Assembly (NCBI GenBank): GCA_010672825.2
Contig: JAAHFU020000003.1
Span: forward strand, 806,001-870,000
Reading direction: 5' to 3'
Source of the DNA: Leptolyngbya sp. SIO1E4
Lineage (GTDB): Bacteria; Cyanobacteriota; Cyanobacteriia; Phormidesmidales; Phormidesmidaceae
Length of the DNA stretch: 64,000 nucleotides
Shown: piece by piece, positions 732 to 18,869 of the stretch
Layout: the number at the start of each line of letters is the position of its first letter
Position numbering within the stretch: position 1 is the stretch's first letter
Notes under the pieces: generated by a model
What the model was told of the DNA's origin: nothing
Databases searched by the model: none
What the model saw: the letters and a program-made list of their open reading frames with translations, nothing else
Program-made: the position numbers and the translations under genes

Positions 732-2501
732 CTATTCAGCCACCGTCTCAGCCATATTGGCGCCGGTAGTGCTGGGGTCAGAGACCTCCGTCGTCGGGGC
801 TTCTTCAAGAGCTGCTTCAGGGGCTTCTTCAGGGACTTCTTCAGAAACTTCTACTTCTAACGTCTCGGCAGCGACAGGAATCGTTTCCGTAGGCTCAGCT
901 GCCTCAGCGTCGGGGGCTGTCCTGTTAACTTCTAAAAAGTCGGGATTGTTGAGGGTCGTCACCGTTAAAACTTGGGGGGGAGTCGCATCCGGCGGGTAGA
1001 TAAAATCTACATCCACGGTTCGCAGATCCCCCGGTGGCAACGTTAACTGGAGCAGGGTTTCGCCCTCTTGCCCTTGACGTTGCACTAGATGCACATAGCG
1101 TGACTGAGTGACCCCAAGACCATTGCTATAGCGCAATCGTACTGTCCCCCTGAAGAAAATTCGATCGCTGGGGCGACGGCGGAACCGCAGCCCAGACTCT
1201 AGGGTCTCATCTTGAAGGGGAGTTTGCAGCTTGATCGCCACTCGCTGGAAATCATCCGTATTGTTATGCAACGGCAGCAAGACCTGATAATGAACCCCAT
1301 AATTACCATGGGCACGATAGGCCGTATCGGGATATCGCACCAACATCGGGGCACTTTGAATTTGCTCAGTCCCAAAGGTGTTCTGATCAACCGTGCTAAT
1401 GACGTAGGAAAGAGAATCGCCGGGCTCTGGAATGGTGAGTTCAAACCCATCTGGTTCGTCAGCAACTCGGCTAGTCCACTGAGAGCCTTGAGCAACGCCT
1501 GCTACCCGGCCATAGAAAAATCGTTCGTTTTGGTTGCTCTTACGAAACTCTTCTGGATCCGTGGGGGCAATATCCCGAGGCCCTGCCAAATCACCATTGA
1601 CAAGCAGCGATAGCCATTCTTGCAAAGTAGGAGCCCGCTCTTGTCCATTCGTCGTTTGGGGCGCATACATTGACAGACTCGCTACGTACACGGGGCCACT
1701 ACTCGACAAATACAGCAATGCAGAGCGGCCATTGCTGGGGAGTTGGCGATTTCTAACGGTAGGGAGATTTCCAGGAGGTGCCGCAGAAGCAAGGGCCGTG
1801 TCAGTAGAATCGTTCACCGGAATTGACGGCAGCACAGAACCAGGAGGTAAGGTGGCATCAACCGAAAATGGAAGTCGCCGCAGTGGAATCGGCGCATTCA
1901 TCAATAAATAAGCCTGACGCGGAGGAATGGTTACCTGCTCAGGCCATTGAGACTGATTGCGCCCTTGCAAAATATCTGTAACGGTGCGGCTGCCAGGCCC
2001 TGCAAATACGCTGCCGCTGGGGTTAGCGACTAAGGACGGCAAATTATTAAAGGGAGCCTCCTGACTGAGGTAGCTGACCCCTTGCAGAATTTCGAGGGTG
2101 ACGGGCTCAGAGCTGGGATTGTAGACCACTGCTCCAACGAACAAAGTGCGGCGGTCGTCGTAGCTCAGCCCCCGAGCGATATGGTGCGCAAAAAAGTCAA
2201 ACCGCCCTTCAAAGGGAAAGTTGAGGTGGATTTCCCCATTTAGCATATCGTCGGGGGGAAACGTGGATAGCAAAACCCCTTCTTGCTGAACGAGCTCTGG
2301 GCTGTTGCTGTTAAAGACTGGAACCTCGTCTAGCTGCCCCGGCAGCGGACGCACTTCTTGGTGTCGAATGACCTCACCAGGAAACGCAGGTGCAGCTTCG
2401 CCCTCTGAAGCCGGCACCGATGCTAGCAGCATAGGCTCTGGAGCCAAAGGAGCGATCGCTGCAACCTGAGAAAAAGTGAGCCATGCAAATGCAATCAGCA
2501 T
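732..2501 (-). CDS. DUF3370-family exported protein
   Basis: This 589-residue protein starts with a hydrophobic N-terminus (MLIAFAWLTF then alanine-rich), read as a signal peptide. It has the family's conserved stretch near residues 50-110: VRPLPGQLDEVPVFNSNSPE, LLSTFPP, then HLNFPFEGRFDFFAHHIARG. The rest is beta-rich with no recognised catalytic motif. The last 70 residues are acidic and low in complexity (Glu, Ala, Thr), probably disordered. DUF3370 proteins are mainly cyanobacterial and their function is not established. It converges with the repeat protein and shares its terminator. Confidence 0.8.
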   Translation of the reverse strand: MLIAFAWLTFSQVAAIAPLAPEPMLLASVPASEGEAAPAFPGEVIRHQEVRPLPGQLDEVPVFNSNSPELVQQEGVLLSTFPPDDMLNGEIHLNFPFEGRFDFFAHHIARGLSYDDRRTLFVGAVVYNPSSEPVTLEILQGVSYLSQEAPFNNLPSLVANPSGSVFAGPGSRTVTDILQGRNQSQWPEQVTIPPRQAYLLMNAPIPLRRLPFSVDATLPPGSVLPSIPVNDSTDTALASAAPPGNLPTVRNRQLPSNGRSALLYLSSSGPVYVASLSMYAPQTTNGQERAPTLQEWLSLLVNGDLAGPRDIAPTDPEEFRKSNQNERFFYGRVAGVAQGSQWTSRVADEPDGFELTIPEPGDSLSYVISTVDQNTFGTEQIQSAPMLVRYPDTAYRAHGNYGVHYQVLLPLHNNTDDFQRVAIKLQTPLQDETLESGLRFRRRPSDRIFFRGTVRLRYSNGLGVTQSRYVHLVQRQGQEGETLLQLTLPPGDLRTVDVDFIYPPDATPPQVLTVTTLNNPDFLEVNRTAPDAEAAEPTETIPVAAETLEVEVSEEVPEEAPEAALEEAPTTEVSDPSTTGANMAETVAE

Positions 2502-3987: not shown

Positions 3988-4458
3988 TCAGGAAACTTTG
4001 ACGAGAACCAGATCCGCTTCGATCTTGGCCTCAAAAATTCCGAGGGGGGCTGTGGCCGGCCCTTGGGCAACGCTACCGTCACTATTGAATGTAGACCCAT
4101 GGCATGGGCAGGCAAAGGTGCTCGCCCCGCTGTCCCACTCGACGCTGCATCCTTGGTGAGTGCAGAGAGAGTCTACCGCTAGCACTGCTGCCTCATCAGC
4201 TGGGTTGCGAATGACCACCACCTGGCTACCCTGAAAGCTTTTGTCAGAGATAAACCCGGCTTCATCCAGCGCGGCAACTGTTCCCACCGCTGCAAAACCA
4301 TCCTCGCGCCGGGTAGAGTCGACTTCGGTCTCACTTTCTGCAGGGGCACCGTCAGGGGCAGACGCTGTATCAGAGGATCGACAAGCGGCGATCGCCACCG
4401 GCAGCGAACTTGCGAGCGCCCCCAGGCCTACCCAATTAATGAATTCTCGTCGTTTCAT
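3988..4458 (-). CDS. Rieske [2Fe-2S] protein with Tat/lipoprotein-type signal
   Basis: 156 residues. The chosen start (MKRREFINW) follows GGGGAAACTGCC and gives a twin-arginine N-terminus (RREFINWVGLGALASS) ending in a possible lipobox, AIAAC; the longer frame from 4515 adds 19 residues of no apparent value. The C-terminal half carries both cluster-binding boxes, CTHQGC and CPCHGSTF, whose two Cys and two His bind a Rieske cluster. It should sit on the periplasmic or lumenal face and pass electrons. It lies downstream of the CcsA-like and ResB genes on the same strand. Whether it belongs to a cytochrome bc complex is unknown; the cytochrome-b-like gene at 12473 is a possible partner. Confidence 0.85.
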   Translation of the reverse strand: MKRREFINWVGLGALASSLPVAIAACRSSDTASAPDGAPAESETEVDSTRREDGFAAVGTVAALDEAGFISDKSFQGSQVVVIRNPADEAAVLAVDSLCTHQGCSVEWDSGASTFACPCHGSTFNSDGSVAQGPATAPLGIFEAKIEADLVLVKVS

Positions 4459-4596
4459 GGCAGTTTCCCCATTAGGTTCAGCGTGGGCGTTGATGCAAAA
4501 GGTGATGCAAAACAAAATTCTGTAGAGGAAAGACGGGCCGCAGAAGTCTGGTCTGACCGCCCGAAAGAACTGGCGCCCGTCTTACCGATACTTGGC

Positions 4597-6300
4597 TTAT
4601 AGGTTTTCAGCCGTCGTCAACGAACCAGGACGACCCAGCCAACCGTAATGGCGGGCAGCTGAGATCGCCACAAACAGCAGATCCGCTGCCACCACTCCCC
4701 CGATGAGCAATTCTGAGCCCCCTGTGCCAAAACCGTAGCTGTGGAGACCAGTACCCAGCACAAAATTGACACCGTACCAGGCCATCAGCACGGCATTAAA
4801 GGCCACTACACTGGCGACGTTGATACCGAAGTCCCCGATCCAGCCCACCAGACGCCCATGCAGGGGGGCCAAATAGCACAGCAGTGCAATTAAAGCCCAG
4901 GTTTCTTTCGGATCCCAGCCCCAGAAACGACCCCAAGAGAAGTGAGCCCAGATGCCACCGAGGATGATGCCCGTTGTTAGCAGCAACACGCCCACCTGCA
5001 GCACCCGATAGGTGAGCTGAGACAGGGTCTTGATCCGTTGGCGCGCATTCGGCGTCCATAGATAGTTGCCCAAGGCTACATGGCCGATTCCCAAAGCCAA
5101 GGCAAAACTGGCATAGCTCAGGGCAATAGTGGGCACATGAATACTGAGCCAGAAATTATCTCGCAGAACCGGCACCAGAGGGGCAATGCTGGGGTCTAGC
5201 ACAGCCGGCAGGCTGTCTGCCAAAATCAGGCACATCACCGATAGGGGTGCCGCCGCCAGCAGATAATAGCGGCTGCGAGAAATGAGTTCAAACGTGAGGG
5301 CGATCGCCGCAATCCCAAACCCGACCCACACCACTGACTCATACATATTGGTCACGGGAGGCCGACCGGCAATCTGCATCCTCAGGAAGAATCCATAGCT
5401 CTGCACGGCAATCCCCGTGGTGAACAGGCCAATCGCGCTCCAGTAGAGGTTCCAAGGTTTTACCCAGAGGCTGATTAGCATCACGACAAAGGCGATCGCG
5501 TACAGCTGCCAAGCCTTGGCAAAGGGGTGGAAGTGGTTAAAGTGTACTTCCCGATTTAGCGTCGCATTAGAGGGATAAACCATTGGGCTAAGCTGCTGCA
5601 GCCCCATTTTCAGCTCCTCGGCAAAGGCCCCAACCATCGACAAATGGGAGGTTCCCCCTCGCAATAGGGTCTGTTGCATCAGGGCAAACTGGGCCAGGAG
5701 TGGGGCAAGGGTTTCAGGGGCATAGAGCCGTTGCGCCTCATTCAGCCCTGCCCACTTACCTTTCATTGCTTCTGGGTGAGGCACAATCGGTAGACCGTTA
5801 TCCCCAACAGCCTGATACAGCAGGTTGAGACGATCTTCTACGGTCAGCGCCTCTCGTTCATTGCGGCTCAGGTCTTCGTCATTAAGCGCCTTCTGGTGGG
5901 CCTGCCCAACGAGCGCAATCAGCTCCCTATGGGTCATCAGCTCCTGGAAAGTAAAATGCTTGCGCTCCAAATCTAGCCCTACTGCCTCTTTGAGGGGGCG
6001 ATAGCTGACTAAAACGAAGGGTTCTTCGTTCCAGTTGCGAGTATTGAACCACATCGTCAGATAGGTGCTGAGGGGACCCGCTTGACTGCCGTCAGCCTGT
6101 TGATAAGTAGTGGAACCGTGAATTTTAGCGACAGTCTCTTGGGCAACCGTATCGAGGGGCTTTTTGCGCCCGTCTAGCTGCACCGCCAGAGTCCGCAGCG
6201 ACTCTAGACCGTCTGGCTGAAACTGGCTCAAGGGCATGAGTAGCAAGAGGCTACCTAAACACAGGCCAACGAAGAATTTAATCAGGGATATGCCTTTCAT
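4597..6300 (-). CDS. ccsA: CcsA/ResC-like cytochrome c maturation membrane protein (long form)
   Basis: 567 residues from the start MKGISLIKF. Upstream in-frame codons lie in dispersed repeat A, so the earlier start is rejected. The C-terminal half is the System II haem-handling protein: many membrane helices and the tryptophan-rich motif WGRFWGWDPKETWALI near residues 470-485, which handles haem before its attachment to CxxCH apocytochromes. The N-terminal 250 residues form an extra, largely extracytoplasmic region after one membrane helix, making it longer than the usual 300-350-residue CcsA. ResB lies just upstream. The pair probably matures the multihaem cytochromes encoded divergently at 9829-12054. 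Confidence 0.85.
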   Translation of the reverse strand: MKGISLIKFFVGLCLGSLLLLMPLSQFQPDGLESLRTLAVQLDGRKKPLDTVAQETVAKIHGSTTYQQADGSQAGPLSTYLTMWFNTRNWNEEPFVLVSYRPLKEAVGLDLERKHFTFQELMTHRELIALVGQAHQKALNDEDLSRNEREALTVEDRLNLLYQAVGDNGLPIVPHPEAMKGKWAGLNEAQRLYAPETLAPLLAQFALMQQTLLRGGTSHLSMVGAFAEELKMGLQQLSPMVYPSNATLNREVHFNHFHPFAKAWQLYAIAFVVMLISLWVKPWNLYWSAIGLFTTGIAVQSYGFFLRMQIAGRPPVTNMYESVVWVGFGIAAIALTFELISRSRYYLLAAAPLSVMCLILADSLPAVLDPSIAPLVPVLRDNFWLSIHVPTIALSYASFALALGIGHVALGNYLWTPNARQRIKTLSQLTYRVLQVGVLLLTTGIILGGIWAHFSWGRFWGWDPKETWALIALLCYLAPLHGRLVGWIGDFGINVASVVAFNAVLMAWYGVNFVLGTGLHSYGFGTGGSELLIGGVVAADLLFVAISAARHYGWLGRPGSLTTAENL

Positions 6301-6368
6301 GATGGAGGGTGAATCGTCACTAGACGGCGGGCAGGTTAAGAACAGGGTTTGCAGACATCGATACCCCG

Positions 6369-6421
6369 GCTCAGTTGAGTGCAGAACATCTGGGTCAAGA
6401 CAGGAAACAGGGTATGGAGGC
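6369..6421 (+). repeat. Dispersed repeat A, copy 3
   Basis: CTCAGTTGAGTGCAGAACAT, then CTGGGTCAAGACAGG and GGTATGGAGG, same orientation as copy 1. It fills the gap between the ResB stop and the CcsA-like start, so the operon carries a repeat between its two genes. Confidence 0.55.
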
Positions 6422-6456
6422 CGTGCTCTATGTGAATGCAAACGGCTACCGTGCGC

Positions 6457-8238
6457 CTACTTGCTAAATACAGCCAGAATCGGAATCACAGTGGCCTCGT
6501 TTTCGGCGGGGGCTTCTGTCTCAGGAACCCCAGCATCAAACCGTCGCCGGAACTTCTTCACAAGGCCAGGTCCGTAAAACATGGTGCCGATGCCAAGCAC
6601 AACCATGAGCGATCCGCTCCAGGTGAGCGCGGTCACCCACCAAGGTTCTCGTTTGAGCTGCAGGGTAGATTGCTTCAGATCACCAGGATTCCACGAAGCC
6701 TGAGCCAGTTTCCAACCTCTAAACCAGGTGGGATGATTCATCCACACGGTACGGTGAGCGGCGGTATCCGTTTGTGGATCAAAGACTGTCACCTGACTAG
6801 TCCACATGGCAACAGATTCGCTCCCTTCATTGCGCTCCACAATGAAGTCGTCCAGCTTCACATAAAACGGGAGCTGCAGCATCTTGGGACTAAAGGCAGC
6901 AAAGTACTCTCCGTCAGCAGTTTCCAGGCTGGTGGGCTCTCCCCAAGGCAACCAAAAATCTTGCCCTGCAGTGGTGGCAACGTGCAGCGCGGGCGCGCCT
7001 TCAGCAACTAAGGTACCGGCGGCCACTGGCGTCATCGGCACCACCTGCCGCTGCATCCTAGCTTTATCTAAACGCTCAGTCAGAGAGATCTGAAAATCAG
7101 CCCAGCCAGGCGTCACGGCCTGGCCAGGGCGGAACTCGCCTGCCTGAAACCCTTTAGAAGATGAGGCTGCATAGAATAGCTGGTGATCCGGGGAAGCCAC
7201 AACCCGAAAGTAGTTCGTCGTAACGGAGCGAGGGGCATCGTAGGTTACCTCAACGGCAATCTCATCCCCCGATCGCACCGGCTCAAACCCTGGTTGAGCA
7301 AAGACAAACCAGCGTTCGTAGGTCTCTCCCTGCCTCAGCATTAACTGCACGGCGGGGTTCCGAAACTGCGCTGAGGCTGAGGTGGGCTGGCTGTTTTCAT
7401 CCAAACGAAAATCCGGCCAAATATTCACCACCTCTACCGTCAGGCCATCCTGCAGAGGCAAGGTTTGCCCCAACGCTGCCTGTACGGAGATGGTGCGATC
7501 GCCCACCTGCAAGTGTCCATAGGTGTCTGACTCTGTATCCGGTGGACTCAAAAGCTGCCGCAGTTCCGCCTCATCTCCAGCTTGGAAGATTTCGAGATGG
7601 GCGGGGCCAATATCCAGCTGGCTATAGCCGACTGGAGCAACGGCCAACCAGCGCTCTAGAGTCTGGCCCATGCGATCGCTCTGCAGCTGCACTTTCACCG
7701 CCAGATTATCCACCGTTCCCCCCTCGGCAAAGCGAACCGTCTTAATGGCGTCATCGCTATAGCCCAACAAAGTCAGCCCCGCGAAAGTTGGTGGATAGAC
7801 CGAGCCATCAGACTTGATGAAGATATCCGTTTGCTGTTGGGTTTGGTCAGGGGTAACGATCTCCAGCAAATCTCCTTCCACCCGCACCTGGTTATTCGGC
7901 CCGCCATCGGTACGCACGAGTAACATGCCCTCAGTACTGAGGTGAATCACCGCAGCAGAGCCCGCAATAATGACGACCAAGCCCCAGTGGGTCAGGGCAA
8001 ACCCAATTTTACGAGGCCCTCTCCAGGGGTATCGACTAAGGGTAGAAATGCCTAAATTAATCGCCAAAAGAAATATCAGCGCACCAAACCAGGCACTCTT
8101 ATAAATTTCTCTTTGAACAGTGGCTGTTCCCACATTTGATTCATAAAAAGTGGCCCCAATCAGAATGACTGCGATCGCCGCTAAAAGCGTTACTGCCAAT
8201 CGAATTGAGCCTAAAAATCGAACGATTTTAGGTGTCAT
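6457..8238 (-). CDS. resB: ResB-like cytochrome c biogenesis protein
   Basis: 593 residues. It starts with the family pattern FLGSIRLAVTLLAAIAVILI (first membrane helix), has further helices near residues 50-105 (GALIFLLAINLGISTLSRYPWRGPRKIGFALTHWG as separate helical parts), a long periplasmic domain of about 400 residues, and a last helix near 545-570 followed by a basic cytoplasmic tail. ResB (Ccs1/CcsB) proteins work with the CcsA partner in System II to deliver haem and keep apocytochrome cysteines reduced. It is separated from the CcsA-like gene by 156 bases containing repeat A. It is divergent from the globin-cytochrome operon across a 528-bp gap. Confidence 0.87.
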   Translation of the reverse strand: MTPKIVRFLGSIRLAVTLLAAIAVILIGATFYESNVGTATVQREIYKSAWFGALIFLLAINLGISTLSRYPWRGPRKIGFALTHWGLVVIIAGSAAVIHLSTEGMLLVRTDGGPNNQVRVEGDLLEIVTPDQTQQQTDIFIKSDGSVYPPTFAGLTLLGYSDDAIKTVRFAEGGTVDNLAVKVQLQSDRMGQTLERWLAVAPVGYSQLDIGPAHLEIFQAGDEAELRQLLSPPDTESDTYGHLQVGDRTISVQAALGQTLPLQDGLTVEVVNIWPDFRLDENSQPTSASAQFRNPAVQLMLRQGETYERWFVFAQPGFEPVRSGDEIAVEVTYDAPRSVTTNYFRVVASPDHQLFYAASSSKGFQAGEFRPGQAVTPGWADFQISLTERLDKARMQRQVVPMTPVAAGTLVAEGAPALHVATTAGQDFWLPWGEPTSLETADGEYFAAFSPKMLQLPFYVKLDDFIVERNEGSESVAMWTSQVTVFDPQTDTAAHRTVWMNHPTWFRGWKLAQASWNPGDLKQSTLQLKREPWWVTALTWSGSLMVVLGIGTMFYGPGLVKKFRRRFDAGVPETEAPAENEATVIPILAVFSK

Positions 8239-8766
8239 AGCGATCCCAAACAGCTATGGAAACTTGTTGAACAATTTTTAGGATTTCTGATTATCAAATT
8301 GCAGTAATTGATACGAAATCGCTCTGCATTATGTAAAAATCGCTCAGATTCAATGATTAAATTGCATACCTTATTTTGCTTGAGAAAGATATGTGTTTAT
8401 TGCATCATTCTCATGCAAGAGTCGAATATACAAAGGCAAAGGTGTATTTTATTTGACAAAAAATAGCGATTTCCTTGCCTATCTTCTAGCTCAGATAGCG
8501 CTTTTGCTCGAGCGGCCCAGTATTTGAGCAGAAGATTTTTATCTTTTTGTTTGAGAGCGTAGCTGACTGAAGGTTGCCGTTTTTACTGCTTCCTGCCTTT
8601 GAATTTCATTGGCAGTTGTCTAGCAGTGAGAATGGTTCTCCTCCAAGATCTGTCGAGTTCAGATGCTTATTTTTTCAATAGGCGTCCTGCAAGGAGCTGG
8701 CAATTATTTAAGAGTTTTACGTCCGCAAAGCGGGCCTTATTACGTTGCTAGGAGATTGACAAAACA
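8239..8766. promoter_or_regulatory. Divergent AT-rich promoter region between resB and the globin-cytochrome operon
   Basis: 528 bases without a gene, clearly AT-rich against its neighbours. It must hold promoters for both directions. A ribosome-binding site TAGGAG sits at about 8749-8754 before the globin ATG. I looked for the NtcA pattern GTA-N8-TAC and for a clear FNR/CRP palindrome and found neither. Confidence 0.5.
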
Positions 8767-9798
8767 ATGAACTCAAATGTTAGCGGTGCTTCATCAGGCA
8801 CTGCACTTCAGATTGCTCTTTTAGAGCAAAGTTTCGAAAAAATAAAGCCTCGGGCTAACGATTTTGTAGGCAGCTTTTACCACAATTTATTCACCGACTA
8901 TCCTGCTGCCGAACCCTTATTTACCCACACCAACATGACAGAGCAGGGTAAGAAACTGCTGACGTCCCTCGTGTTTGTGGTCGAAAATCTAAAGCAGCCG
9001 GGTGCACTCACCGAGGTTCTGCAGGGCTTAGGCGCTCGCCATATCCGGTATGGGGCTTTGCCCGAGCACTATCCCCTGGTGGGGAACTCTCTGCTGAAAA
9101 CCTTTGAGCAGTATTTAGGGGCTGACTGGACGCCGGATGTGAAACAAGCTTGGGTGGATGCCTATAGCCTGATCACCGAAGTCATGTTAGAGGGGGCAGA
9201 CTATTCTCAAGCGCAAATCCAGCTAGACCCCTCAGCCCTGGAAGTAGACGAGGCAACTGGGCTGAAGGTGAAGTTGCTAGAAGACAGTTTCGCAAAAGCC
9301 AAGCCCCACGCCGAAGCATTTGTCACCAGTTTTTACGACAACTTATTTACTGACTACCCGGCGGCCAAGCCTCTGTTTGCCCATAGCGACATGAAAGTGC
9401 AAGGCAATAAGCTGCTGATGTCTTTGGTCTTTGTCATCGACAACTTACGGAATCCTGGGGAGCTGACCAAGGCGTTGCAAGGGCTAGGGGCTCGTCATGT
9501 GAAGTATGGCGCCCTGCCTGAGCACTATCCGCTGGTGGGCAACACACTACTGAAAACCTTTGAGCAGTACCTGGGGGCCGACTGGACACCGGATGTGAAG
9601 CAGGCGTGGATCGATGCCTATGGTCTGATCACCGAAGTCATGCTAGAGGGCGCAGATTATTCTCCTGAAGCGGTACACCTCGACCCCTCAACCCCAGCGG
9701 ACATTGAGGTGCCCGAGAGCAATATCAAACCTGGGACTGCAACGGGTCTCATTGGCGGGGGGTTGATTGCTCTCATCATTATGTTTCTGTTGGTTTGA
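8767..9798 (+). CDS. Tandem two-domain globin with C-terminal membrane anchor
   Basis: 343 residues with two copies of a bacterial globin domain (about 10-145 and 162-297), strongly alike. Each has the SFYxNLFTDYP B-helix with its Tyr (38 and 190), the LGARHxxYGALPEHYPLVG F-helix with the likely proximal His (92 and 244), and the LLKTFEQYLGADWTPDVKQA segment. Residues 321-343 (GLIGGGLIALIIMFLLV) form one membrane helix. No signal peptide is present, so I infer a tail-anchored protein with globins on the cytoplasmic face. Globins of this type bind O2 or NO; an NO-detoxifying or electron-linked role is inference. Good RBS; operon head, 30 bases before the pentahaem gene. Confidence 0.85.
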   Translation: MNSNVSGASSGTALQIALLEQSFEKIKPRANDFVGSFYHNLFTDYPAAEPLFTHTNMTEQGKKLLTSLVFVVENLKQPGALTEVLQGLGARHIRYGALPEHYPLVGNSLLKTFEQYLGADWTPDVKQAWVDAYSLITEVMLEGADYSQAQIQLDPSALEVDEATGLKVKLLEDSFAKAKPHAEAFVTSFYDNLFTDYPAAKPLFAHSDMKVQGNKLLMSLVFVIDNLRNPGELTKALQGLGARHVKYGALPEHYPLVGNTLLKTFEQYLGADWTPDVKQAWIDAYGLITEVMLEGADYSPEAVHLDPSTPADIEVPESNIKPGTATGLIGGGLIALIIMFLLV

Positions 9799-9828
9799 TC
9801 CCTGAAGACACGCCTAGGAGAGTTATTG

Positions 9829-10476
9829 ATGGCCTGGAATCGGGGGCGAGTCTTCCACTGGCGCTCCGTAATTAATTTAAGGGTGGCGATCGCACTGGTT
9901 TGTGTTGCACTGATTGGCTGGTTTGCCGCTGCCTTTGCGCTAGATAACAAGCAGGTATTTTTGCCTGGAGAAACCTCCGTCGGCCACTACTTGTTTGAAA
10001 CCTCTTGTAGCTCCTGCCATGAAGGCTTTAAGCCTGTCACCAACGACACCTGCATGCGCTGCCACGAAGCCGAAATGGCCGAAGATGCCCACGGCACTCA
10101 AAAATTTCTCGACCCCCGCTGGGCGGGAGAACTGGAAAAACTGGCGGTGCTGACCTGTACAACCTGCCATAACGAGCATGTCCACATGTTTGGTCGCGGT
10201 GTTCATCTGCAGCCAGACCTGTGCATGACTTGCCACGAGGGGATTATCAATGGCGACTTGAAGAGCCACGATGGGTTTGCCACTGATGGCTGCTGGACAG
10301 CCGGATGCCACAACTACCATGACCACCGTTCGATCTCGACGGGCTTCTTAAGACAGAACCTTGATCAACCCCCAATGCTGCCTATACAGGTACTCCCCGA
10401 GCGAACCGTACTCACCCAATTAGAAACAGCTCCAGCACCAGATCTAAACCAAGAATTTCTGGGAGGGGGGACATGA
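9829..10476 (+). CDS. Membrane-anchored pentahaem c-type cytochrome
   Basis: 215 residues. An uncleaved-looking membrane helix (about 17-37) is followed by a periplasmic part with five haem sites: CSSCH (60-64), CMRCH (75-79), CTTCH (110-114), CMTCH (132-136) and a wider CWTAGCH (155-161), the CX4CH spacing known from some cytochrome c3-type proteins. Many extra His could be distal ligands. It resembles NapC/NirT- or c3-like electron carriers, but I cannot place it in a named family. ATG 9829 is preferred over TTG 9826 because AGGAGAG lies at the right distance. Its stop overlaps the next start by four bases. Confidence 0.85.
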   Translation: MAWNRGRVFHWRSVINLRVAIALVCVALIGWFAAAFALDNKQVFLPGETSVGHYLFETSCSSCHEGFKPVTNDTCMRCHEAEMAEDAHGTQKFLDPRWAGELEKLAVLTCTTCHNEHVHMFGRGVHLQPDLCMTCHEGIINGDLKSHDGFATDGCWTAGCHNYHDHRSISTGFLRQNLDQPPMLPIQVLPERTVLTQLETAPAPDLNQEFLGGGT

Positions 10477-11264
10477 AAGGACTGCTAACGGGCCTGCTTG
10501 TCTTCCTGTTACTGCTAGGTTGGGCAACCCCCGCCTGGGGAGATGGGGTGGATCAAGCTGGAATCGATGAGCGCACTCAGCAATGGCAAAGTAGCACCCA
10601 CGCTCTGAACCAGGTGAATTGCTCTAGCTGTCACCAAAATGCAGAAACCCAAGACTTTGTGGCCCACCCTGATCAGGAAAGCTGCCGCACCTGCCATGAG
10701 CAGGCAGTAGACACCTTTCTCCTGGGTAAACACGGTATTCGCCTACTAGAAGGAGGCACCCCGCTGCAGCCAGCAATGGCGCGGTTGCCCATGCAAGCAG
10801 CCGCCCACGATTTACAAATGACCTGTGGCACCTGCCACGATGTCCACTCAGTGAATACGGTGCAGGCAGCCGTGGATTCTTGTCTCACCTGCCATAGCGA
10901 CCCCCATTCCCTGAATTACGAAAACTCTCAGCATGCTCAGCTGTTTGCCGCTGATCGCAGTCTGCCCCGACCAACGGGTACCTCTGTCAGCTGCGCCACT
11001 TGCCATCTGCCTCGCCATGAAGTCAAAGCCGGTGAGGGTAGCATCACCCGGGTGAATCACAACAACACCTACACGCTGCTGCCCCGCGATCGCATGGTGC
11101 AGGAGGTGTGCATGAACTGCCACGGCGTGGAATACAGCTACAACAGCATTTTTGACGATGACCTGGTGGAGGCCAATTTTGATCATCCCCCCAGCCTGTC
11201 GCTAGAAACCTTTGACCTGGTGCGGGCCCTTGAAGAACGGCGCACCAGCCAGGGCAGTGAATAG
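10473..11264 (+). CDS. Periplasmic hexahaem c-type cytochrome
   Basis: 263 residues. A cleavable signal peptide (1-23, ending PAWG) is followed by six CxxCH sites: CSSCH (50), CRTCH (71), CGTCH (118), CLTCH (137), CATCH (174) and CMNCH (213). The pattern of long spacers with HGIR, HDVHS and VNHNNTYTLLPRDRM segments is reminiscent of the octahaem/hydroxylamine-oxidoreductase and cytochrome c554 superfamily. No crosslinking Tyr or Lys-type catalytic haem (CXXCK) is seen, so electron transfer is more likely than catalysis. The ATGA overlap with the pentahaem gene suggests coupled translation and a complex of eleven haems. Confidence 0.82.
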   Translation: MKGLLTGLLVFLLLLGWATPAWGDGVDQAGIDERTQQWQSSTHALNQVNCSSCHQNAETQDFVAHPDQESCRTCHEQAVDTFLLGKHGIRLLEGGTPLQPAMARLPMQAAAHDLQMTCGTCHDVHSVNTVQAAVDSCLTCHSDPHSLNYENSQHAQLFAADRSLPRPTGTSVSCATCHLPRHEVKAGEGSITRVNHNNTYTLLPRDRMVQEVCMNCHGVEYSYNSIFDDDLVEANFDHPPSLSLETFDLVRALEERRTSQGSE

Positions 11265-11397
11265 CGGCGATCGTCCAATCCAGCGTTCGCATCGACGAAC
11301 TTCCTCACCCGCTATGCGCTCACGGTTGCGCTACTCAGCAACGAGGTTGAACTTCTGTAAGACATCACTCACGCTCTAAATTAAGGAGATTACTTCC

Positions 11398-12054
11398 ATG
11401 GCAATTGTAGAAAGGTGGATGGGGGCTATCCGCACCCGTACCGTTGCGTTTATCGCCATTATTCTGGCAGTGGCAATAACGGCAATTTCCTGTAGCAGCA
11501 GTGGGGGGCCTACCGCCACTGCCAGCACCGGCATCGCACCTGAACTCGTTGTTGATTACATTCACGCCGTCCTTGAAGCAGACCGTACGGCCTACACCAA
11601 ACACGTGGTAAACCGGGCTCAGGTGCTGGAAGGGAAGTCTAAAGAGGACGGTGTTTTGACCATTGAAGCCACGGAAGGATGGCAGCAAACGGGCGGAATT
11701 CCTCTGCCAGCTCAAATGTTCCGCCTTGGTTCAGAGATTGCAAATGAGTCCGGGTACTTTACCTACAACCTCATTTCTCCCTGGTACATCAACGATAGTC
11801 ATGCCCCTAAGAGCGAATTCGAGCAAACCGCAATGGACGCCGTGATTGAGACCGGTGAACCCTATAAAGACTACCAGGAGGCCGGTGGTCAGCAGTTCTT
11901 TTCTGCCATCTATCCAGACGTAGCGGTTGCCGAAGCTTGTGTCTCTTGCCACAACACCCATCCGATTCACCTAGAGCGGTATCCCGACAAGCAGTTTGTC
12001 ATGGATGAAGTCATGGGCGGCGTCGTCATCAATATTCCCCTAGCGGGAACTTAG
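11398..12054 (+). CDS. Tll0287-like (DUF3365) monohaem c-type lipoprotein
   Basis: 218 residues. An N-terminal membrane segment ends in the lipobox-like AISC (about 34), so it is probably a lipoprotein on the periplasmic or lumenal side. The Tll0287-like domain spans about 55-215, with a YFTYNLISPWYIND core and a single haem site CVSCH near residue 180. Tll0287 of Thermosynechococcus is a PAS-like cytochrome with unusual axial ligation, thought to act in redox signalling. A strong AAGGAG lies before the ATG. It follows the hexahaem gene by 133 bases on the same strand. Confidence 0.85.
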   Translation: MAIVERWMGAIRTRTVAFIAIILAVAITAISCSSSGGPTATASTGIAPELVVDYIHAVLEADRTAYTKHVVNRAQVLEGKSKEDGVLTIEATEGWQQTGGIPLPAQMFRLGSEIANESGYFTYNLISPWYINDSHAPKSEFEQTAMDAVIETGEPYKDYQEAGGQQFFSAIYPDVAVAEACVSCHNTHPIHLERYPDKQFVMDEVMGGVVINIPLAGT

Positions 12055-12472
12055 GCGCGAGTTACCAAGCGACTAGCAGGTGACGCGCCGCGTGATCTGA
12101 GCTGGGAATGGGGGGGCAATTCCCTTACCATTCTCCAGCTCATTTATACCAATTCTCCAAATCAGCGCTACACATCGCCACCCCACCGCCTGCGGCACCT
12201 CCCCTTGGAAAGGGGAGGCTGGGAGGGGTCTGATCTGTCGCTTTAGAAACGAGAACTGGTATTACCCCGCCTTTGTGGGTTTTTTGCCGCCATGATCCCA
12301 GTTGGTAGCCATAGAGAGATCGGGCGGTAGAAGATGCCGTGACGTAGCCTGACGCACCATCTTGTAAAGCTTGATGGGTTAGGCTGGCGCGCAACGCAGT
12401 TGATGAAGTAATGAAGGCGCCTGACTGAGATTTAGAAATTTTGTACTTACAGATTTTGATATTCCCAGGCCA
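12055..12472. other. Intergenic region carrying repeat B
   Basis: 418 bases without a credible gene. It contains the compact repeat B (12146-12262). The rest (12263-12472) shows nothing I can name; a 118-codon minus frame across it looks like a shadow. Promoter elements for the cytochrome-b-like gene are expected near 12430-12460 but none is clear. Confidence 0.5.
12146..12262. repeat. Dispersed repeat B, copy 2 (MITE-like, 117 bp)
   Basis: The ends ATACCAATTCTC and GAGAACTGGTAT are inverted repeats with 11 of 12 matches. The centre has a hairpin (CCTCCCC with GGGGAGG). It matches the interrupted copy at 3533-3840, including CATCGCCACCCCACCGC near the left end and CTTTAGAAA near the right end. 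Confidence 0.6.
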
Positions 12473-13210
12473 ATGAGCAGATTTCGCCGCCCACACCGCA
12501 CCCTTGATTCTCAGGAACCGCTCTCTTCAGGGCGCGATCGCACGGCTGGAGAGCCCGTCTCCTCCCCTGACCTGGGAGCGATCGCCCCGCAGCGGCGATC
12601 GCCCAAGCGACCTCGGGGCATTCAACCTGGGTTCAAAACCCTGATTGGCCTAACGTTGCTGACGGCGGCGTTGCTGCTGCCCTTTGTGTTCAGCGCCCGC
12701 TACCTAGACCTGCTGCGGGAAAACTCCATTGACCTGCATCAGTTTCTGCGCGGGGAGTGGTACAAGCAAGGGACGGGCTATGTTGGCCTCGGGTTTGTCC
12801 TGTTAGAGGGGATGCTCACCGCCCGCAAACGCAGCCGTAGCTGGATTGGCCAACTCAAAATTCCAGGCTCCATGCTGCTGTGGCGCAGCATTCACATCTT
12901 TTCAGGGGTGGCGCTAGTCGGTGTGGTGCTCATCCACACGATAGGCGCCAACGGTCTCAATTTTAATGCCCTCTTTTTATGGGTTTTCTTTGCCACCACC
13001 CTCACAGCGCTGGTCGGTGTGGTAGCTGAAACCGGAATTTTGGAATCTACCCGCAGCCGTTTCGGCCAGCTGCCTGGTGGCGCAGTGCTCACCAAGGGAC
13101 CCCTGATTCGAGGGTTGCGCTCGATCTGGTTGGCCAGTCACATTTTCTTTGTCTGTGTGTTTGCCGTGATGCTAGTTTTCCACATCATTCTGGCCTACTA
13201 CTACCAATAA
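12473..13210 (+). CDS. Cytochrome-b-like four-helix membrane protein
   Basis: 245 residues. A basic, low-complexity N-terminus of about 50 residues is followed by four hydrophobic segments (about 57-75, 98-115, 140-160 with RSIHIFSG, 164-185, and 225-245). Paired His lie in helices: RSIHIFSGVALVGVVLIH in one and LASHIFFVCVFAVMLVFHI in the last, the spacing expected for two bis-His haems b. It resembles the cytochrome b561/ferric-reductase-like transmembrane fold. In this position it could move electrons between the quinone pool and the periplasmic multihaem proteins (inference). The start is uncertain; no clear Shine-Dalgarno is seen. Confidence 0.65.
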   Translation: MSRFRRPHRTLDSQEPLSSGRDRTAGEPVSSPDLGAIAPQRRSPKRPRGIQPGFKTLIGLTLLTAALLLPFVFSARYLDLLRENSIDLHQFLRGEWYKQGTGYVGLGFVLLEGMLTARKRSRSWIGQLKIPGSMLLWRSIHIFSGVALVGVVLIHTIGANGLNFNALFLWVFFATTLTALVGVVAETGILESTRSRFGQLPGGAVLTKGPLIRGLRSIWLASHIFFVCVFAVMLVFHIILAYYYQ

Positions 13211-13372
13211 CAGCTGTCTGTAGGCACTCTCTACCCTGTTAAACCCGCCCAGGCGATTGCTGAGATCTCCTCTATTCAGCACATGCCCCTCCTGCTGAGG
13301 CAGGTTTCGCCAAAGTCACCGTTTTTTTACCCCCCAAAATCTTCTAGTTCAGACATTCAGAGGTCGGACACG

Positions 13373-13855
13373 ATGACTGTTAAGCCCCTATCGGATACCC
13401 CTCGAAAAAACAAAGCCAGTTTGTTGGCGATCGCAGTGGTGGCAACGTTTGCGATTGCCGCGTACCTACTGACCCTCCCTGACCCCTCTGTACAAAGTCT
13501 CTCACCCATCTCAGGGCTGATGACCTTGAAAACCACCACCCAGGAAGCGATTCCCTACCCAGTGGCGATGGTCACCCCAAAGCCCACGCTTGTCGAGTTC
13601 TATGCAGACTGGTGCACCACCTGTCAGGCCCTGGCGCCAACCCTGCAAGCTATCCATCACCAGTTTGGCAATCAGATCAACTTCGTCATGCTGAACATTG
13701 ACGATCCCCAGTGGCGAGAACAGGTGCAGCAGTTTCAAGTGAGTGGCGTTCCCCATTTGGCGCTTCTCAATTCAGACCAGACCCTTGCCGATACCTTCAT
13801 CGGTAAGGTTCCCAAGCAGATCATTGCTGACCGCGTCGCTGATTTACTTGGCTAG
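13373..13855 (+). CDS. Membrane-anchored thioredoxin-like protein (HCF164/TxlA type)
   Basis: 160 residues from the ATG after GAGGTCGG; the longer frame from 13283 adds 30 unlikely residues. One membrane helix (about 17-35) is followed by a thioredoxin fold: VEFYADWCTTCQALAPT with the redox CTTC pair, the DDPQW region, and the cis-Pro loop SGVPHLALL. HCF164/TxlA proteins feed reducing power to cytochrome c assembly on the lumenal side, keeping apocytochrome cysteines reduced. That role fits the System II genes and multihaem cytochromes nearby. Confidence 0.82.
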   Translation: MTVKPLSDTPRKNKASLLAIAVVATFAIAAYLLTLPDPSVQSLSPISGLMTLKTTTQEAIPYPVAMVTPKPTLVEFYADWCTTCQALAPTLQAIHHQFGNQINFVMLNIDDPQWREQVQQFQVSGVPHLALLNSDQTLADTFIGKVPKQIIADRVADLLG

Positions 13856-13906
13856 GGCTTACGTTCGACTCACCTATGCTGTGCATCCCTTTAGGAGTCC
13901 CATTAC

Positions 13907-14125
13907 ATGGCGCTACTCAATCGGTTTCTTCGACTGCTAGAACTGCTGGAACAGGCCACTGATGTGGTTGAGTTTTTGACCACCCCCGCAGGCATCGCGA
14001 TCGCGACTTGTCTACTCAGCTATCAGGCATTGCTGGTGATTGGCTGCGATGGGCCTTCCGCCGCAATTCTCGCCAGTGCCACTGCCCTGACCTTACACTG
14101 TGGGTTAAATCGCCCCAAGTTTTAA
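13907..14125 (+). CDS. Small membrane protein, unknown
   Basis: 72 residues with a good ribosome-binding site (TAGGAGTCC before the ATG). An amphipathic N-terminus (LNRFLRLLELLEQATDVVEF) is followed by a hydrophobic stretch, about residues 29-62, that could form one or two helices. Two Cys (35 and 47) and one more near the end are present. No family is recognised. It lies 51 bases after the thioredoxin gene and five bases before the ChaN-like gene, so it is probably cotranscribed with them. Confidence 0.6.
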   Translation: MALLNRFLRLLELLEQATDVVEFLTTPAGIAIATCLLSYQALLVIGCDGPSAAILASATALTLHCGLNRPKF

Positions 14126-14130
14126 CCCCT

Positions 14131-15012
14131 ATGGCCAAACGATTTTATCAAGGGCACCTGTGCTGGATTGCCCTGAGCAGTGCTCTCCTTTTAATCCCCC
14201 CTGTGGCCTGTTCTGCCAGTGATCCTCCACGGACGATGCAGGAAACTGAGTTGGCTGATCGCCAATCCGAGGATTTTCAACGGCTGCTGAATTCAGATGT
14301 CGTATATCTGGGAGAACAGCACGATAGTGTGGCCGACCACACCGCTCAGCTAGAGATTATTGAGGCCATCTATGCGGAAAATCCAGATATTGCGATCGGG
14401 TTGGAAATGTTTCAACGCCCTTTTCAACCGGTCATCGATCGCTATCTCGCGGGGGAGATTTCTGAGGCTGAACTGGTTGAACAAAGCGAGTACGAGCAGC
14501 GCTGGGGGTTTCCCTGGGAATATTACGCCCCGATTCTACGATTCGCGCAGACACACCAGCTACCGGTGCTGGCCCTGAATGCCCCCGGCGAAGTCGTGCG
14601 TCAGGTTGCCCGAGAAGGGCTCGATAGCCTAGAAGATGACGACTTTCGCGATATCCCTCCCTTGGCCGAGATTGATACGAGCAACACCGACTATCAGGAT
14701 TTTGTCAGAGTTGCTTTCGGAAGCCACGGTAGCCACGGCAATTTCAATTTTGAGAATTTCTTTGCGGCTCAAGTCGTCTGGGATGAAACGATGGCCATGA
14801 GCATTGCAGATTTTAGGCAAGCCCAACCCGATACGCAAGTGGTGGTATTGGCAGGCCAGGGACATGTCATTTATGGCTATGGCATTCCCGATCGCGTCGC
14901 CCGCCGCTTGGGAGACTCTTTACAGCAGACCAAAGTGCTACTCAATTTTCCTGAAGAGCTGCTGACAGAATCGTCAGACGGAATCGCCGATATCTTTTGG
15001 GACAGTGAATAG
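14131..15012 (+). CDS. ChaN-like haem-binding lipoprotein
   Basis: 293 residues from the ATG directly after the small membrane gene; the frame from 14008 would overlap that gene. The signal sequence ends in VACS (lipobox). The body carries ChaN hallmarks: VVYLGEQHDSVADHTAQLEI, then IGLEMFQRPFQPVIDRYL, and later VVVLAGQGHVIYGYGIPDR. ChaN-family lipoproteins (haem-binding uptake, Tiki-like) bind haem dimers at the outer membrane of some bacteria. In this cluster it could bind or ferry haem (inference). Confidence 0.8.
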   Translation: MAKRFYQGHLCWIALSSALLLIPPVACSASDPPRTMQETELADRQSEDFQRLLNSDVVYLGEQHDSVADHTAQLEIIEAIYAENPDIAIGLEMFQRPFQPVIDRYLAGEISEAELVEQSEYEQRWGFPWEYYAPILRFAQTHQLPVLALNAPGEVVRQVAREGLDSLEDDDFRDIPPLAEIDTSNTDYQDFVRVAFGSHGSHGNFNFENFFAAQVVWDETMAMSIADFRQAQPDTQVVVLAGQGHVIYGYGIPDRVARRLGDSLQQTKVLLNFPEELLTESSDGIADIFWDSE

Positions 15013-17153: not shown

Positions 17154-17269
17154 GCCACCGTGTCAGCCGCATTTACATTCAGGACGGCATCAGGACTGGT
17201 CTAGGGTTAGGCAATCGCAGTAAAATTCTATGCAAGCCTGAAAGATACTTGAAAAATATCAATATAGAC

Positions 17270-17635
17270 ATGCCAACGATTCCATTCCCTCCTGAGTCAG
17301 CCTCCCAAGACATTGATGTGCAAGCCCTCGCCCAAAAATTATCAGCCGGTACAGACACCCTGCAACTGATCGATGTTCGTGAACCATGGGAAGTCGAAAC
17401 GGCTGCGATCGCGGGGTTTGCCAACTTGCCGTTGAGTCAGTTTGCACAGTGGGAGACACAAATTCACAGTCATTTGGATGCAGAGGTCGAAACCATTGTG
17501 ATGTGTCACCACGGCATTCGCTCAGCCCAAATGTGTCAGTGGTTGAGGGAACAAGGGTTTACCCACGCGAGAAACTTGGTGGGCGGCATTGATGCTTATG
17601 CCGCTCTGGTTGATCCGTCCGTGCCCCGTTATTAA
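17270..17635 (+). CDS. Single-domain rhodanese-like protein
   Basis: 121 residues from the ATG (MPTIPFPPE); the TTG at 17249 is an alternative. It contains the rhodanese fold signatures LIDVREPWEVETAAIAGFANLP and the active-site loop MCHHGIRSAQM, with the Cys of the C-X4-R loop present, then NLVGGIDAY. Such proteins transfer sulfane sulfur or bind it as a persulfide. Length is normal for a stand-alone domain. No neighbour gives the partner. Confidence 0.85.
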   Translation: MPTIPFPPESASQDIDVQALAQKLSAGTDTLQLIDVREPWEVETAAIAGFANLPLSQFAQWETQIHSHLDAEVETIVMCHHGIRSAQMCQWLREQGFTHARNLVGGIDAYAALVDPSVPRY

Positions 17636-18431
17636 GTCTCGTGATTAGAGGCAATCGATACACTCAATGCAATTGATAGAAAAAGGATGCATTGCATTGA
17701 GATGCGAGTGTCGATAGTCATTGAGTTGGATTAAAACATGGCTGGCTAACAATCTCTGACAAAGGGTAAATCTTTAGGGGACGTTTTCTAGAACCCATAG
17801 AGGTGGGAACCTCAAAGGCGTATTCAGCATCCATATCAATGCAGGGCTTGACCCGAATCACATCCAGATTCGAAGTTTTTAGTTATCGTTATTTCATCGT
17901 CAAATCAGCTTGCTTTCATAAAAGGTTTTCTGAGCGCAGGTAAGTTGACATAAGACCATGATTGATTCGATTTCTTCCTGACCTTACGTCCCCTTTAGCC
18001 ACAGTTTCTTATGTGGATGCACCGACTCACTGCGTTGGCGATCGTAACGATGTTCTCGGCGGTTCTACGTGTCAACGTTATCCCTACCCTAGACAAATTA
18101 CTCCCTCCTCCGCAAGCTAAAGCCTCAATCTCACTGGGCGTTACCTTAAAGTCAATTGCTTGGATACAAGATTGCTATTTCAAGGAGGTCTCTGAGGTCT
18201 CTTTTGAGACGACGCGTCGTTCTAGCCCAAGGGGCTAAGGTCATCTAGCAGGGTCGGCTTTAGGGAGACTCAGCGTTTATAGATGAGATCTGTAGATGAA
18301 ATTTGAAGATGAAATTTTACGCTTAGATTCTCAAAATTAAATGCGCCGTTATTCTAAGCTTTCAAATAGCAACAAAGTCAACAATCCATGTCATTGAGAT
18401 TTGGGCTTAAAGCCGTACAAAGGGTGTGAGA
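17636..18431. other. Long intergenic region with an imperfect hairpin
   Basis: About 796 bases. An imperfect long hairpin at about 17654-17716 pairs ATCGATACACTC and AATGCAAT with ATTGCATT and GAGTGTCGAT; it has no T-run. The 75-codon frame at 18011-18238 starts with a signal-peptide-like stretch but has no family pattern, and I do not call it. Nothing else is recognised. Confidence 0.4.
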
Positions 18432-18869
18432 ATGGTTGAACCTAGGGTCATGGTAGAGGGGTTTTCAGTGGCGCCTCAGCTAACGGAGGCTGACTTTCCT
18501 GAGTTGGCAGCAGCCGGGTATAAAACGATCATCAATAATCGCCCAGATGGTGAAGAACCTGGTCAGTTGACCACCGAGGTTGCCAAAGCGCTAGCAGCAG
18601 CCAATGGGCTGAACTATGTCTACATCCCAATAGTTTTCTCTGAGCTAAACTCGGCAATTGTTGATCAATTTGCAGAAGCTTTAAAGACAAATTCTGGCCC
18701 GATTCTCGCCCACTGCAAAACGGGGACACGAAGCTGCATTGTATGGTCAATGGCGACTGCTAAAGACAACACCATGACCGTTGATGAACTGTTGATGTGC
18801 GCGGCTAAGGGCGGCTATGACTTGAGTCGGATGCGTCCTTTAATCGAACAATACATGGGTACAGGCTAG
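18432..18869 (+). CDS. DUF442 / TIGR01244-type phosphatase-like sulfur transferase domain protein
   Basis: 145 residues. It shows the family pattern: FSVAPQLTEADFPELAAAGYKTIINNRPDGE at the start and the catalytic P-loop AHCKTGTRSCIVW (Cys, then Arg after five residues), as in the cysteine-phosphatase-like domain found alone or fused to beta-lactamase-fold proteins (Blh, SQR-linked). Family members are linked to sulfide oxidation or persulfide handling. The rhodanese gene upstream makes a sulfur role plausible, but the 800-base gap argues against an operon. Confidence 0.75.
   Translation: MVEPRVMVEGFSVAPQLTEADFPELAAAGYKTIINNRPDGEEPGQLTTEVAKALAAANGLNYVYIPIVFSELNSAIVDQFAEALKTNSGPILAHCKTGTRSCIVWSMATAKDNTMTVDELLMCAAKGGYDLSRMRPLIEQYMGTG

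Follow-up and report, generated by a model that had tools for sequence, protein, structure and literature searches.

A candidate nitrogen-controlled electron-transfer module combining an eleven-haem wire with membrane-anchored globins in cyanobacteria, Planctomycetes and Acidobacteria

We describe here a gene cluster of the cyanobacterium Leptolyngbya sp. SIO1E4 (host genome, 8.2 Mb), located within a stretch of 64,000 nucleotides on contig JAAHFU020000003.1 (positions 806,001 to 870,000; G000:C3:806001-870000, hereafter the window). The cluster comprises two divergent operons: one on the minus strand (3988-8238) encoding a Rieske protein, CcsA and ResB, and one on the plus strand (8767-15012) that runs from a double globin through to a ChaN-like protein (Table 1). 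The balance of evidence leaves it an even call that these genes form an undescribed respiratory-type module of cyanobacteria, Planctomycetes and Acidobacteria, which would couple nitrogen assimilation, an eleven-haem wire and membrane-anchored globin arrays and, in cyanobacteria, would constitute an NtcA-controlled electron route between cytosol and periplasm or lumen that handles nitric oxide (NO) or oxygen (O2). Judged from the sequences, the architecture of the module and its nitrogen control, taken jointly, are likely to be right. That it is a nitrogen-controlled transmembrane electron-transfer module for nitrate/nitrite assimilation, with NO being handled by membrane-anchored globins, is put forward only tentatively, and NO handling as its purpose, suggested by analogy, a shade more tentatively still.

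In the mechanism we propose, the b-type membrane protein would pass electrons across the membrane via two b haems to an eleven-haem wire in the periplasm or lumen, and a mono-haem Tll0287-like lipoprotein would join the bis-His haems of a penta- and a hexa-haem cytochrome outside the membrane. At the cytosolic face, tail-anchored globin repeats would bind O2 or NO. A dedicated CcsA/ResB pair and a thioredoxin would mature the c haems, including that at a conserved CX4CH site, and NtcA would turn on the globin operon. The cytosolic donor outside cyanobacteria would be NAD(P)H, via a fused NirB-type flavoprotein; candidates in cyanobacteria are ferredoxin/FNR or quinol. The module may protect or support nitrate/nitrite assimilation, most likely by clearing the by-product NO through globin-catalysed NO dioxygenation fed by electrons of the membrane chain.

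A conserved gene set around eleven c-type haems

A block of about nine genes stays together in many cyanobacteria, and a related form is found in Planctomycetes and Acidobacteria. Protein searches of relatives and named genomes recovered these genes with their order unchanged in Leptolyngbya, Halomicronema, Nodosilinea, Moorena, Symploca and Xenococcus, and this gene order further in Hyella, Acaryochloris, Roseofilum, Spirulina, Prochloron and others, with the placement of the ResB/CcsA/Rieske operon varying somewhat between loci. The ChaN-like and pentapeptide-repeat proteins are frequent, yet optional neighbours. In an even set of 242 cyanobacterial genomes, the hexa-haem cytochrome, the divergent ResB and the cytochrome b were each present in 26. 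The hexa-haem gene was accompanied by the divergent ResB in 24 of its 26 genomes (2.8 expected; P ~1e-28) and by the cytochrome b in 25 (P ~1e-31), P values that are optimistic since the genomes are related to one another. Several of the few exceptions could be explained; in some genomes (G023, for instance), the cluster runs into a contig end, and in another (L117, see below) transposase-like ORFs stand in place of part of it. Repetition of gene content and order in dozens of genomes, together with near-invariant haem cysteines and histidines, argues that the cluster is not a product of chance.

An earlier reading of this DNA, made without database searches (the sequence-only reading), had proposed a dedicated set of redox genes, with System II maturation genes of its own and globins of an NO/O2 type, uncommon in cyanobacteria, and had named homologues scattered with no co-occurrence as the outcome that would speak against it. 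Its gene list and divergent operons were recovered in place (with ChaN present in some genomes only), co-occurrence proved near-perfect, and the multihaem set is indeed uncommon (26 of 242 genomes). What did not hold up was its quinol-linked chain, and the link to nitrogen control had been missed.

The penta- and hexa-haem cytochromes of the window contain eleven haem-binding sites, as had been counted from the sequence; ten are CXXCH, but one is CX4CH (CWTAGCH). The Tll0287-like protein contributes a twelfth c-haem site. The CX4CH site takes the form CxxxGCH in 59/59 cyanobacterial and 13/14 other sequences. Besides, the two open reading frames (ORFs) overlap by 4 bases (ATGA) in the window and likewise in 48 of 59 cyanobacterial loci. 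Across 74 penta- plus hexa-haem sequences from several phyla, the 22 haem cysteines and 22 histidines are invariant or nearly so, and there are exactly eleven extra conserved histidines (five in the penta-, six in the hexa-haem part), each in 73 or 74 of the 74 sequences. This pattern predicts eleven bis-His c haems, that is, an electron wire. As every haem would have a conserved second histidine, no catalytic haem is predicted, and none without a second histidine (or with lysine), as in HAO, NrfA or octahaem nitrite reductase (ONR), was found; catalysis like that of HAO/c554 was rejected on this ground. The hexa-haem protein is hence unlike HAO/c554, the comparison suggested by the sequence-only reading, and similarity of the multihaem sequences to ONR/NrfA is short and local only. 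In a tree of the eleven-haem sequences, one fully supported branch splits cyanobacteria from the rest. An AlphaFold2 model of a fused eleven-haem protein reached a predicted local distance difference test (pLDDT) score of 40.

Among known systems, the decahaem cytochromes MtrA/DmsE and the pentahaem NrfB are likewise extracytoplasmic bis-His multihaem c cytochromes that receive electrons from a membrane protein. However, the cluster has eleven haems in a penta- plus hexa-haem layout, one CX4CH site and no recognised porin partner, and sequence similarity to these cytochromes is weak and local.

With regard to maturation, the cluster encodes what defines a System II cytochrome c synthase, namely a CcsA with WWD motif (that of the window contains WGRFWGWDPKETW and matches PF01578 at 4e-31) and a ResB, whose match to PF05140 spans only ~70 profile positions. 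A standard ResB is encoded elsewhere in the genome (contig C1), and the cluster ResB is therefore an extra copy. We infer that this CcsA/ResB pair is dedicated to the CX4CH-bearing multihaem proteins. Similarly, NrfI and CcsA1 of Wolinella are extra, dedicated System II synthases whose genes neighbour that of a multihaem cytochrome carrying an unusual haem motif. In contrast to these, CcsA and ResB of the cluster are unfused, the motif is CX4CH rather than CXXCK or CX15CH, and the dedication is putative.

The Tll0287-like protein belongs to the same Pfam family as Tll0287 and the sCache_heme proteins and shares their CXXCH (PMC12889525), but it is a lipoprotein inside a gene cluster and has no free cysteine for the Cys/His ligation of Tll0287. 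PDB sequence searches with this protein, as a single sequence and as an alignment, gave no match onto which the sixth haem ligand could be mapped.

The membrane cytochrome b has four histidines (141, 155, 223 and 237) that are invariant in split and fused forms alike. Together with a five-helix model, they fit two b haems, one by each membrane face. The protein had no match to a Pfam cytochrome b, just a weak one to DUF4405, and a Foldseek search of its model (pLDDT 83) against the PDB returned nothing significant, a b561 protein ranking seventh (E = 2.3). A bc1/b6f-type chain was rejected, as the five-helix model is not that of a bc1/b6f-family cytochrome b.

In Planctomycetes (including Rhodopirellula and Roseiconus), the penta- and hexa-haem cytochromes form a single protein (10 CXXCH + 1 CX4CH), as they do in Acidobacteria/Thermoanaerobaculia, one Gemmatimonadota bin and one gammaproteobacterial bin. 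Directly upstream of these non-cyanobacterial eleven-haem genes lies a fusion protein whose C-terminal part is the same cytochrome b, and whose N-terminus resembles NirB residues 1-472 (TIGR02374, E = 1.6e-134), carrying flavin adenine dinucleotide (FAD)/NAD(P)H and BFD [2Fe-2S] domains without the sirohaem half. The fusion thus shares its flavoprotein and BFD parts with the N-terminal half of NirB and the NADH:flavorubredoxin reductase NorW, but has a five-helix cytochrome b in place of the sirohaem half of NirB; the cyanobacterial protein lacks the flavoprotein domain. Position of the latter at the cytosolic N-terminus suggests a cytosol-to-periplasm direction, and the path would run from NAD(P)H via FAD, [2Fe-2S] and the b haems to the periplasmic c haems. 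Downstream, non-cyanobacterial loci encode a Tll0287-like lipoprotein, to which Planctomycetes add one single soluble globin. Two planctomycete-type loci additionally have small mono-haem cytochrome lipoproteins adjoining the eleven-haem genes (L099:11902-12471 and L125:10027-10455).

Probable nitrogen control and the globins

The globin operon has a predicted canonical NtcA-activated (class II) promoter. The exact NtcA consensus GTAN8TAC was found upstream of the operon in 40 of 56 regions, with 9.4 expected. Under a strict test against Markov controls (GT..AC, at least 5/6 consensus letters and a TAN3T box exactly 22 bases downstream), 34/54 loci matched versus 0.6 expected, and spacers of 10 to 35 other than N22 yielded 0 to 6 matches each. 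The same test applied to other genes of the cluster returned few hits: Rieske 0/31, CcsA 0/38, ResB 1/41, hexa-haem 0/60, Tll0287-like 1/65, cytochrome b 5/61 and thioredoxin 2/45. NtcA sites upstream of ResB were at background level, and in the region before the globin operon, the frequency of FNR- and CRP-type sites was at background or close to it. Such a promoter has been defined as canonical, and its GTN10AC core is the part highly conserved in chromatin immunoprecipitation data (PMC3898017).

The nitrogen link is supported a second time, by planctomycete gene neighbourhoods. In a Rhodopirellula-like genome, the core continues into genes for nitrate (Nrt) transport, NasA, NirA, a CysJ-like flavoprotein and MoaA, and this nitrate-assimilation neighbourhood is partly retained in L097 and L101 (three planctomycetes in all). 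A link to nitrogen fixation was rejected, because no association with nifH was found (11 of 26 cluster-positive genomes vs 8.2 expected, P = 0.15).

One degraded cluster (L117, G172:C1:1390500-1407500) keeps ResB, CcsA, Rieske, ChaN, thioredoxin and cytochrome b and has lost the globin, penta-haem, hexa-haem and Tll0287-like genes. Transposase-like ORFs occupy the place expected for this globin-to-Tll0287 segment, and a perfect NtcA-type promoter now lies upstream of ResB.

Tyr B10, Gln E7 and His F8 are present in all 102 aligned globin domains, a flavohaemoglobin-like pocket, and among solved structures Hell's Gate globin I (HGbI, 3s1i), HGbRL and Vitreoscilla haemoglobin come closest. The cyanobacterial protein consists of one to five tandem domains, in most cases with a hydrophobic tail at the C-terminus; unlike Hmp, its chain includes no FAD/NAD(P)H reductase domain, just repeats and a tail anchor. 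Given this tail and the lack of a signal peptide, the globins should face the cytosol. Domain number differs among relatives, with five in L062:6762-9116 and four in L078:7377-9320 (both with a C-terminal anchor), and the Halomicronema group (L039:12594, L040:4072 and L041:4132) has an extra single globin gene between cytochrome b and thioredoxin.

Possible NO handling and its alternatives

NO handling is favoured by precedent from Bradyrhizobium, where experiments support NO detoxification by the single-domain globin Bjgb together with a flavoprotein reductase, both encoded in an operon for nitrate assimilation (PMC4724949). This narK-bjgb-flp-nasC system resembles the cluster in pairing a flavohaemoglobin-like single-domain globin with an NAD(P)H flavoprotein reductase in nitrate assimilation and NO detoxification (PMC4724949). 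It differs, however, in having a soluble globin and no cytochrome b, multihaem c cytochromes, Tll0287-like protein or NtcA control.

On the other hand, several observations weigh against our reading of the module as a whole. At 11 of 54 loci, the globin operon has no NtcA site at the permitted spacings of 20-24, and the site of the window itself matches 5/6 (GTA N8 GAC), one consensus letter off with GTN10AC intact. The third residue of the flavohaemoglobin catalytic triad (Glu) is variable in the cluster globins. The cluster showed no anticorrelation with flavohaemoglobin-type reductases, for which no cyanobacterial match exceeded the family cut-off, and the idea that it replaces flavohaemoglobin was rejected for want of this anticorrelation. 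Four planctomycete-type loci (L105, L106, L125 and L126) do not lie beside nitrate genes. The cyanobacterial cluster encodes no cytosolic electron donor, and the weak point is that cytosolic NO dioxygenation alone leaves the eleven-haem extracytoplasmic wire unexplained.

It is precisely this wire that the main rival explains better, while accounting for the globins worse. Here, the b protein and the eleven-haem wire would send cytosolic electrons to an acceptor in the periplasm or outside, for example ferric iron needed for the iron-rich nitrate/nitrite reductases or a sink that takes up overflow during nitrogen stress, with the globins acting merely as O2 buffers or sensors. We consider such export of reductant unlikely, though it deserves the closest attention among the alternatives: the output of an eleven bis-His haem wire lies outside the membrane, the order of reductase, cytochrome b and multihaem protein in other phyla is directed outwards, and the hexa-haem protein is weakly similar to decahaem proteins of the DmsE/MtrA type. 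Yet globins are retained in almost all cyanobacterial loci, and no conserved porin or outer-membrane cytochrome partner was recognised there in searches that covered homologues of the window genes only. An Alginate_exp porin is present in the nitrate-linked planctomycete clusters.

Less probable again is a role in oxygen management, whereby membrane-anchored globin arrays gather or scavenge O2 at the membrane for an oxidase or shield O2-sensitive enzymes, nitrogenase for one, and the cytochromes keep the globins reduced. A binding-capacity role would predict the variable copy number of 1 to 5 domains per protein, Hell's Gate globin I and Vitreoscilla haemoglobin are among the closest solved globins, and nitrogen fixation genes are likewise under NtcA (PMC3898017). 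However, the nifH result given above and the planctomycete copies, which adjoin nitrate assimilation rather than nif, speak against it.

Still further down, we regard a sensing device as quite improbable. The sCache haem domain and the globins would detect NO, O2 or the redox state and the haem wire relay the signal. Such domains of signalling proteins do bind NO (PMC12889525), and the Tll0287-like protein, lacking a free cysteine, may have an open or weakly held sixth site; but stand-alone sCache_heme proteins act as redox proteins (PMC12889525), and neither a kinase, a cyclase nor another output domain is among the conserved members of the locus.

A terminal oxidase or quinol chain entered via Rieske, close to what the sequence-only reading had envisaged, is the least probable of all: the Rieske gene adjoins the cluster in most Leptolyngbya/Halomicronema/Moorena loci, but there is no bc-type cytochrome b (the b protein being a five-helix, four-histidine one, joined outside cyanobacteria to an NAD(P)H reductase of the NirB type), and Acaryochloris and several Xenococcaceae loci have no Rieske beside the cluster, whereas Rieske is common in cluster-free genomes. 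Rieske belongs to a widespread family, relatives being present in 124/242 cyanobacterial genomes; this and its absence from several loci mark it as an accessory.

We found no published description of the cluster in the open-access literature. Its parts are known families, and its general kind, in which an extracytoplasmic multihaem protein receives electrons from a membrane cytochrome b, is already known; what appears new is how the parts are combined, the layout of eleven haems, the fusion of NirB to cytochrome b, the globin arrays with their tail anchors and control by NtcA. Multihaem wires typify metal- and nitrogen-respiring bacteria and are barely described in oxygenic phototrophs. If true, an NtcA-controlled wire with its own haem-maturation genes would be an extra branch of cyanobacterial electron transport tied to nitrogen status and would permit a direct test of NO handling by nitrate-assimilating phototrophs in mats and symbioses. 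The same core inside planctomycete nitrate-assimilation clusters suggests a general solution rather than a cyanobacterial oddity.

Features of the locus and neighbouring genes

Likely starts of Rieske, CcsA and ChaN lie slightly inside the longest ORFs.

Table 1. Features of the cluster, in window coordinates.
Feature	Position	Strand	Basis
Rieske [2Fe-2S] protein, twin-arginine signal and lipobox, accessory	3988..4458	-	PF00355 2e-13; RR and AAC motifs conserved
Long CcsA-type haem lyase subunit (System II), WWD motif	4597..6300	-	PF01578 4e-31; TIGR03144; conserved in cluster
Divergent ResB/Ccs1 (System II), second genomic copy	6457..8238	-	PF05140 4e-15
NtcA-type activator site GTATTTTATTTGAC, GTN10AC intact (predicted)	8444..8457	+	Consensus as in PMC3898017
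-10 box TATCTT (TAN3T), 22 bases past NtcA site	8480..8485	+	
Tail-anchored double globin; B10 Tyr, E7 Gln, F8 His	8767..9798	+	PF00042 3e-39, two domains
Penta-haem cytochrome (4 CXXCH + 1 CX4CH), N-terminal membrane anchor	9829..10476	+	
Hexa-haem cytochrome (6 CXXCH), 4-base overlap with penta-haem gene	10473..11264	+	
Tll0287-like (sCache_heme) mono-haem lipoprotein	11398..12054	+	PF11845 1e-17
Five-helix membrane cytochrome b, four invariant His (two predicted b haems)	12473..13210	+	Weak DUF4405 likeness; AlphaFold2 pLDDT 83
Membrane-anchored thioredoxin, probable apocytochrome reductase	13283..13855	+	PF00085; conserved in most loci
ChaN-like lipoprotein, accessory, part of loci only	14131..15012	+	PF04187 1e-71

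Upstream of the cluster, a large DUF3370 protein (732-2501, minus strand; E = 1.5e-181) is apparently unrelated. The pentapeptide-repeat protein (PF00805; 15379-16314, minus strand) recurs by the cluster in most cyanobacterial loci, sometimes in at least two copies. Also near the cluster are plus-strand genes for a rhodanese domain protein (17249-17635), a neighbour common to just one other locus (L038), and a BLH_phosphatase (DUF442) protein (18426-18869); genes of these two kinds are frequently linked to sulfide/persulfide handling.

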